This document shows, in pieces, positions 6,968-9,589 of a DNA stretch of 33,919 nucleotides (position 1 is its first letter; each line of letters begins with the position of its first letter). This DNA is from an uncultured Bacilli bacterium (GTDB taxonomy: Bacteria > Bacillota_I > Bacilli_A > RF39 > UBA660). The stretch covers positions 1 to 33,919 of the forward strand of contig CALVRA010000001.1 in the NCBI GenBank assembly GCA_944358415.1. Reading direction: 5' to 3'. Both the position numbers and the translations under genes were made by a program. The notes beneath the pieces were generated by a model. That model did not search any database. It worked only from the letters and a program-made list of their open reading frames with translations, and had not been told where the DNA came from.

Positions 6968-8127
6968 TATTTAGCTTCCTTACCACAATTACTGCAGAAT
7001 TTTCCGGTTAATTTAGCTCCACAGTTACTGCAGAATTTAGGGGTTTGAGTATCTGGTGTGCTTACAGCACCTACAGCTTGATTTGGAACTGTATTTTGAG
7101 CTTGAACAGTGTTTTGATTGGCCATTTGAGCATTTTGCATATTTTGATTAACGGCATTAATCATATTGGCTCCGGTTTGATTAGCTAGTCCCATACCCAT
7201 AAAGCCCATCATTGAACCGGCTTCGTTAGAAGCGGCATTTTCCATAGCTTCTGCAGATGCGCTTGCCATGAGTCCTGATTGTAGTGTAGGGTCTGAGAAG
7301 ATTTTTGCGTCATCAATACGCGAAACTCTTTTCATTGACTCTTCTGTTAGATTAATATCTCCCATAGCAACATCGGTAACCATTAAACCATATTGTTTTT
7401 TCCATGAATCATCTAGGCATTTATTCATTTCATCAGAGATGTCACTACCATAAAGTCCCATATCACCAAATGATACTTTTTTATTTCTCATAACGTTAGA
7501 AATAGCTACTGTTACTTTTTCAATAAATTTAGTTTTCAACTGGCTTCCTACTATTTCATCATAGGTTATTGTATCTTTTGGATTGGTACCAATTACACTT
7601 GCAATTAATATAGCAGGATCAACGACTCTAACAGCATATTCACCGAAGAAGGTTACTTCTAGGGTTCCATATTTTTCGTCTGTTATTTTTTTTGGCTGTG
7701 GACTACCAAATTTATTACCTAACATATTTTTTGTATTAACGTAATATACTCTTTGGTCATGAGCAGGCTGTCCACCATAGGTGATACGTCTACCTATGTT
7801 TTTTATTGTCTCTTTTACACCTTTAAAGAAACCACCATCAAAGACTGTTGGTTCACTGCTTTGTTCATAGGTGTATATTCCTGGTTCTGCAGAAAAGTCG
7901 GCAATGGCTCCATTATCAATAACCATCATTGCCATTCCTTCTGGAACAACTATTTGACTTCCTTTGGTAATAATTCCTTCTTCTGGATTTTTATTACCTT
8001 CTCCATGATTTACTTTTCCTCTTTGGATTAGTACGTTATTTGCAATTTGAGGGCATTCAATAAATTCTTTAAATTGATCTCCTAATCCAGATGATACTGA
8101 ACTAGTCACTGCTTTTATTAATCCCAT
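6967..8127 (-). CDS. SPFH/band-7 protein with double zinc ribbon (YdjI-like)
   Basis: The N-terminal part (MGLIKAVTSSVSSGLGDQFK, then ECPQIANNVLIQRGKV) and the SPFH core (about 30-290) match the YdjI family, once annotated as virion-core-like proteins. SPFH proteins form large oligomeric rings at membranes. A helical region rich in Ala, Met and Asn (about 285-350) follows. The extreme C-terminus has two CxxC pairs, FCSNCGAKLTGKFCSNCG, a small zinc ribbon. The 386-residue length exceeds YdjI mainly through the Asn/Gln-rich linker. AAGGAG precedes the ATG, which heads the three-gene operon. A role in membrane stress or membrane organisation is inferred from the Bacillus operon and is unproven here. 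Confidence 0.85.
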   Translation of the reverse strand: MGLIKAVTSSVSSGLGDQFKEFIECPQIANNVLIQRGKVNHGEGNKNPEEGIITKGSQIVVPEGMAMMVIDNGAIADFSAEPGIYTYEQSSEPTVFDGGFFKGVKETIKNIGRRITYGGQPAHDQRVYYVNTKNMLGNKFGSPQPKKITDEKYGTLEVTFFGEYAVRVVDPAILIASVIGTNPKDTITYDEIVGSQLKTKFIEKVTVAISNVMRNKKVSFGDMGLYGSDISDEMNKCLDDSWKKQYGLMVTDVAMGDINLTEESMKRVSRIDDAKIFSDPTLQSGLMASASAEAMENAASNEAGSMMGFMGMGLANQTGANMINAVNQNMQNAQMANQNTVQAQNTVPNQAVGAVSTPDTQTPKFCSNCGAKLTGKFCSNCGKEAK

Positions 8128-8530: not shown

Positions 8531-8562
8531 TGTTGCCGGATTGGCAACAAATGTGATATAAT
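8531..8562 (+). promoter_or_regulatory. Promoter with palindromic operator
   Basis: TGTTGCC (8531-8537) and GGCAACA (8543-8549) are a perfect inverted repeat with a five-base spacer. It covers the -35 TTGCCG (8533-8538), 18 bases before the extended -10 TGATATAAT (8554-8562). This is a typical site for a small XRE repressor and probably controls 8598-9589. Confidence 0.7.
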
Positions 8563-8695: not shown

Positions 8696-9589
8696 ATGAA
8701 AAAATATTTTAAAACTAATTTAATAGGTTTTATAATTGCAGGAATTATAGTAAGTGGAGGATTTGTATTTGCGGCCGTAACTTTTCCATCAAATGAAGTA
8801 TCATATTCAAATGGAACAAGTGGACTTAAAAGTACTGATGTTCAAGGGGCGATAGATGAATTATATGAAACATGTACAAGATTACCAACAGGGGAACAAA
8901 TAATAGAAAATGCCGGCTTAGAAAAAGATCCATATGAATGTCGATATTTCTTTACTGGAGCAACTCCAAATAACTATATAACTTTTAATAATGAAACATG
9001 GCGAATAATATCAGTCGAATGTGATGGAACAATAAAAATAATGAGAGAAGCAAGCATAGGTGATATAGCTTGGGATTCATCAAATTATAATAACTGGGCC
9101 AGACCAGCAAGTTTAAACACATATTTAAACAGAACATATTTGAATGGACTAAATTCAACTGCCCAAAGTCAAATAGTTGCCAAAGACTTTAGTATTGGTG
9201 TTGTAATAAATGGTAATAATGATTTAGAGAATCAAATAAATGATGAAAATAGTAAAAAATGGAATGGAAAAGTTGCCTTAGTTACAGTTTCAGAATATTT
9301 AAGAACAAACAGCAATCAAAATATGTGTGGGACATTTAGTAAAAATAATCGACAATATAGCGATTGTAAAAATACGAATTGGATGTTTAATAACAATAAT
9401 TGGTGGACTTTGTCGTTCTACGATAGTGCATATTATGACCCTGTGTTTTACGTGAGTGGCTCTAGCACTATCGCCAATAGTGGTACTACCGTTGCACTTG
9501 GTATCCGCCCAGCTGTTTATCTATCATCAGATATCAAAATAACTGGTGGAAATGGAAGTTCTAGTAATCCATACACAATTTCAAAGTAA
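8696..9589 (+). CDS. Membrane-anchored lectin-like (DUF6273-type) protein, possible DGR target
   Basis: The 297-residue protein starts with a membrane anchor or signal (residues about 8-27, NLIGFIIAGIIVSGGFVFAA). A short module follows (VSYSNGTSGLKSTDVQGAIDELY, written here in part) of a type often seen in phage tail-fibre and surface proteins. The rest resembles the DUF6273/formylglycine-enzyme-like C-type lectin fold: ITFNNETWRIISV, a TYLNRTYLNGL helix region, and the closing GIRPAVYLSSDIKI. From codon 236 (nt 9401) to about nt 9520, codon use changes sharply, with G/C third positions and long runs of NNY codons, unlike the A-rich remainder. Such lectin-fold C-termini are the usual targets of DGRs. 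It has GGGGG before its ATG and its own terminator. A surface-exposed binding protein is the likeliest role; the ligand is unknown. Confidence 0.82.
   Translation: MKKYFKTNLIGFIIAGIIVSGGFVFAAVTFPSNEVSYSNGTSGLKSTDVQGAIDELYETCTRLPTGEQIIENAGLEKDPYECRYFFTGATPNNYITFNNETWRIISVECDGTIKIMREASIGDIAWDSSNYNNWARPASLNTYLNRTYLNGLNSTAQSQIVAKDFSIGVVINGNNDLENQINDENSKKWNGKVALVTVSEYLRTNSNQNMCGTFSKNNRQYSDCKNTNWMFNNNNWWTLSFYDSAYYDPVFYVSGSSTIANSGTTVALGIRPAVYLSSDIKITGGNGSSSNPYTISK
9401..9520 (+). other. Candidate hypervariable (DGR variable-repeat-like) segment
   Basis: Between nt 9416 and 9493, 23 of 26 codons end in T or C. This is what A-directed mutagenesis of AAY codons produces. The stretch is followed by a G/C-rich conserved block (GGTATCCGCCCAGC, from 9500) where an initiation-of-homing site would lie. 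No template repeat or reverse transcriptase was found in the window. Confidence 0.4.

Follow-up and report, generated by a model that had tools for sequence, protein, structure and literature searches.

A DUF6273 lectin-fold gene of an uncultured RF39 bacterium as a probable, likely dormant remote target of a chromosomal DGR

One gene in a stretch of 33,919 nucleotides from an uncultured RF39 bacterium (GCA_944358415.1, contig CALVRA010000001.1; hereafter the window) encodes a DUF6273 protein with a hypervariable segment near its C-terminus. We conclude, with a probability of about 0.75, that this gene is a remote target paralog written by a DGR from a template other than TR1, the A-rich template found elsewhere in the genome. 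This other template would have been lost or replaced, or it would lie in unassembled sequence, and the copy is most likely dormant.

We first give the evidence from the rest of the genome. Judging from sequence comparison, the family of this gene contains remote DGR targets, because four DUF6273 genes match TR1 at their 3' ends over 102 bp, with mismatches at TR1 adenines (17/17 at C20:16356, 18/18 at C39:13952, 18/19 at C4:32067 and 20/21 at C1:53518). Congeners have live template and variable region (VR) pairs of their own, for example three loci with 22/22 and one with 17/17. Hence, the DGR origin of the family's variable segment is shown by these comparisons, and not merely inferred from the codon pattern.

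The genome encodes three reverse transcriptases (RTs), on contigs C2, C4 and C9. The C2 cassette is a complete DGR, with TR1 upstream of a MutS-like gene, Avd and the RT. This RT (motif GNMTSQ) is preceded by a protein with MutS domain I and by bAvd; the C4 cassette has bAvd and an RT with the motif GNETSQ. The genome thus carries the DGR hallmarks of a GxxxSQ RT motif and Avd (bAvd PF22296 over the cut-off; PHROG Avd), and MutS-like proteins (PF01624) are reported DGR accessory proteins (PMC10053308). The C9 enzyme, an Ec107-like retron RT with no Avd seen beside it, was rejected as a DGR source. The C2 copy of TR1 sits within a truncated IS605 OrfB (TnpB-type) reading frame (L012:6639-7301).

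The first-pass annotation of the window had proposed that the segment is the variable repeat of a remote target, with the DGR elsewhere in the genome and the RT outside the window. The cassettes on C2 and C4 agree with this location. The kind of element also stands, given a lectin-fold target family, a DGR elsewhere and paralogs mutated at adenines, but the template of this particular copy was not found. The search it proposed, for an RT with an A-rich repeat, recovered both an RT and TR1, but TR1 does not match the window segment. The near-copy of 9401-9520 that it expected was found neither in the assembled part of the own genome nor in 43 congeners, and by its refuting condition of no near-copy, present activity is not supported.

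The family is large. The own genome, assembled as 1.199 Mb in 40 contigs, is 75.8% complete. It contains more than 20 DUF6273 relatives of the target gene, some full-length and some partial, and congeners have up to ~40 matches each. Among 70 near-full-length homologs, the mean identity per ten residues ranges from 0.41 to 0.89 over residues 1-240, drops to 0.23, 0.24 and 0.16 at residues 241-270, where the alignments are uncertain, and returns to 0.65 at residues 271-280. The borders of the hypervariable stretch are sharp (9416 and 9505 in the window). When paralogs and congeners were compared, variation between otherwise similar homologs was confined to this VR, which has the same position as the adenine-mutated TR1 copies in the four paralogs. 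The G/C-rich block that follows it (Table 1) is a candidate IMH-like site; the window gene has ATCCGCCC here, against GTCCGCCC in TR1.

Table 1. Features of the target gene and of the DGR-related loci. Positions without a prefix are those of the window; L and C prefixes denote loci and contigs of the own genome.
Feature	Position	Strand	Remarks
Promoter-like match TTGCCG-18-TATAAT, TG before -10	8533..8562	+	Count of promoter-like matches in the region not above chance
Target gene	8696..9589	+	297 aa; DUF6273 (PF19789); hydrophobic segment at the N-terminus
Hydrophobic helix at the N-terminus (residues 2-20), then a low-confidence stretch	8699..8776	+	Sequence and model
Predicted lectin-fold domain, residues 63-297	8882..9586	+	Model confident from ~residue 80
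Conserved WWTLS motif (codons 236-240)	9401..9415	+	Directly before the VR; homolog comparison
VR, residues 241-270	9416..9505	+	Hypervariable among 70 homologs
Conserved G/C-rich block GGTATCCGCCCAGCTGTT	9500..9517	+	Where the homology to TR1 has its 3' end (GCGGTCCGCCCT)
Terminator-like stem-loop	9590..9621	+	13 pairs then T-rich, directly 3' of the stop codon
TR1, three identical 124-bp copies	L012:7148-7271 (C2:80147); C1:53207-53330; C4:31756-31879
Second DGR: Avd, 213-aa protein, RT	Contig C4, L013:7850-8080	-	Target VR fused to the template's 3' flank
MutS-like DGR accessory gene	Contig C1, L171:3635-4045	-	Directly after a remote TR1 copy
Ec107-like retron RT	Contig C9, L001:1267-2226	-

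The protein matches DUF6273 with 31 bits, above the Pfam gathering threshold of 23.5. Its predicted model has a pLDDT of 85, mostly above 90 in the lectin domain. The best fold match of this domain is to the Thomasclavelia ramosa IgA peptidase (9qa6), in its N-terminal part (Z 17.1 over 190 residues), ahead of any classical C-type lectin. Many C-type lectins give middling matches, and so does Treponema denticola TvpA (variable protein 1, 2y3c; Z 5.9 over 130 residues). A profile-based sequence search of the PDB returned chance-level hits only. Since the score of TvpA is middling, the predicted structure by itself gives moderate support for the lectin fold. DUF6273 has been likened to the C-lec fold (PMC10743442) and DGR variable regions have been reported at its C-terminus (PMC11792537). 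Homolog comparison, the model and this precedent together place the VR at the C-terminal end of a C-type-lectin-fold domain. The helix of residues 2-20, with the low-confidence stretch after it, is probably a signal or a membrane anchor.

The first clue to the segment was its codon usage, which we recounted. The 23 of 26 codons ending in T or C at 9416-9493 that the first-pass annotation had reported were exact in coordinates and counts, and so was the conserved G/C-rich block at 9500: GGTATCCGCCCAGC is kept in paralogs (residues 271-280, 65% identity). Of its segment 9401-9520, the part from 9416 is indeed variable, but the start at 9401, where codon 236 begins, had to be moved because codons 236-240 (WWTLS) are conserved. 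Over the whole VR, 26 of 30 codons end in T or C against 127 of 267 in the remainder of the gene (post hoc Fisher p = 3e-5), and GC is 0.44 against 0.31. This might merely mirror the amino acids of lectin loops (Y, S, D, T and G). When amino acids were fixed, with the codon usage of the other genes of the window as reference, the excess shrank to 17 of 21 against 12.6 expected (p = 0.033, in a test picked after the data had been seen). Other frames reach similar counts: 23/26 ranks second among the open frames of the window, behind 24/26 at 7897, in another frame, which overlaps an opposite-strand gene. However, composition leaves both the sharp-bordered hypervariability and the template-matched paralogs unexplained; it is contradicted as a full account and we consider it very improbable. 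The four template-proven variable regions of the genome score no better in the amino-acid-controlled test. For these reasons, the codon pattern is real but not diagnostic, and serves as a hint only.

We then searched for the template of the window's own copy. Adenine-tolerant pattern searches of the own genome (up to three mismatches) retrieved only the segment itself, both for 9401-9459 and for 9440-9505. A pattern of the positions expected to be fixed in siblings or template matched only the window across 44 genomes of the genus, and BLAST with the inferred all-A template returned the window itself, apart from short hits at chance level. Among 101 variable regions, none was clearly a sibling derived from the same template. 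Nothing in the assembled sequence was nearly identical to 9416-9505 with mismatches confined to adenines. These patterns and BLAST were run genome-wide, while gapped adenine-tolerant scans covered selected loci. Several candidate sources were rejected. TR1 aligns to the segment at background score. The C4 cassette is devoid of a template, its target being fused to the template's 3' flank. Templates with an RTCCGCCC end and AAY runs are represented in the own genome only by the three TR1 copies. Phage ancestry of the target gene was also rejected, as its peptide patterns hit no viral contig in a search that reaches close relatives only.

The members of the family separate when they are aligned codon by codon, with gaps and adenine tolerance, to 17 templates of the genus. 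The four live targets reach z 27-35, and five further paralogs are intermediate (z 28, 15, 9, 7 and 7) and apparently ageing. The window segment is at background (z 2.0; score 15 in another comparison), and of the 22 segments of the own genome in this alignment, 13 score close to or at background. Such numbers could also arise if positive or relaxed selection and recombination among lectin paralogs had produced the variation without reverse transcription acting here: no template is found for the window copy, and divergence and gene conversion could suffice. We find this unlikely. The variable borders are those of the retrohomed segment in the four proven targets, GC is raised in the variable segment only, and the segments of two close paralogs, L025 (73% identical to the window gene) and L027, are clearly template-derived.

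The gene could be a currently active remote target whose template lies in the quarter of the genome missing from the assembly, a sub-case that differs from our main reading only in present activity. A missing template is possible because the assembly is 75.8% complete, and its 40 contigs could, for example, have broken a template array. Relatives hold arrays of two to four templates beside one RT, TR1 copies exist far from the RT, and the T/C-ending pattern is still 26/30. On the other hand, all four live VRs of the genome use TR1, no congener has a template of the type that would be needed, and the GC3 of the segment (12/30) is half that of the live VRs (22-24/30), as if ageing. We thus regard current activity as possible but doubtful. 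The GC3 value lies between those of live VRs and gene bodies (~0.15), as would be the case for an older segment that drifts toward an AT-rich base composition.

Since the segment matches neither template nor sibling and has an intermediate GC3, we read the window copy as an orphaned DGR-written segment, the last step being an inference. According to this main reading, the gene would be a paralog among the remote targets (variable proteins) of a DGR system on the bacterium's own chromosome, and residues 241-270 would have been rewritten at some time by mutagenic retrohoming. The template RNA, presumably other than TR1, would have been copied by an Avd-RT complex with random bases placed opposite template adenines, and the cDNA would have replaced the VR as far as the conserved G/C block at 9500. 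Once orphaned, the copy would slowly ameliorate. The protein is probably exported, and its lectin-fold surface, including the variable strands, may bind something extracellular.

Dispersed TR1 copies and a VR-template fusion on C4 suggest routes by which templates are acquired and lost. The TR1 copies on C1 and at C4:31756 lie ~290 bp downstream of a target's VR, and their 3' flank is the C-terminus of a target gene, not the flank found at the RT locus. The MutS-like gene on C1 is without Avd or RT, and the genes after it resemble rpsF and ssb. The target of the C4 cassette ends ...NGYGVRPISYYS and runs on into the DNA that follows the template in congeners (CCAATTTCCTACTACAATTAGTAA...), where the counterparts of this target continue VINLNPNNLTFTG... 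The simplest reading of these sequences is that recombination between VR and template deleted the template and the C-terminus of the target; no other template was found for this target. In congeners, arrays of two to four different A-rich templates precede Avd-RT (L086:300-850, L085:548-853, L089 and L097).

Similar arrangements have been described. The TvpA family of T. denticola also has one chromosomal DGR and several dispersed lectin-fold targets (PMC4891356). It comprises 2-7 targets, against more than 20 paralogs here in 1.2 Mb and up to ~40 matches in congeners; the present system differs further in the DUF6273 type of its targets, its MutS-like and Avd accessory genes and its three template copies. 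Published targets of T. denticola include 'suspicious' ones that carry an excess of mutations and one leftover, SP32, with a VR fitting the template of a different strain type (PMC4891356). Cyanobacterial remote variable proteins are likewise dispersed C-lec paralogs, some with VR/TR homology (PMC7517822). Some are mere 'VP homologs' with less than 50% VR identity, a class that the window gene fits, and one has remnant TR-VR homology with no RT nearby. The cyanobacterial targets are mostly predicted to be cytosolic (PMC7517822), whereas those described here look exported. The targets of Faecalibacterium and gut phages share the DUF6273 domain, the C-terminal VR (PMC11792537) and the lectin-like fold (PMC10743442), but they are phage proteins (PMC11792537, PMC10743442), while here they are chromosomal, remote and multi-copy.

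Large metagenome DGR surveys can miss remote targets, and one of them indicated that its own approach would not detect these (PMC8144416). Here, one lectin family takes up more than 20 of the genes in a genome of 1.2 Mb, and four of them are visibly written from one template. Other members are in apparent stages of decay, so the stages in the life of a DGR target (written, ageing, orphaned) can be read in one genome. More speculatively, templates might turn over rapidly in this genus of Bacilli with small genomes, being copied beside targets, lost by VR-TR recombination and replaced, and the families of 20-40 lectins might be layered archives. We put this forward tentatively. If it is true, few members would be actively rewritten and many, including the window gene, would be frozen; such members could be reactivated or reshuffled once a matching template is acquired.
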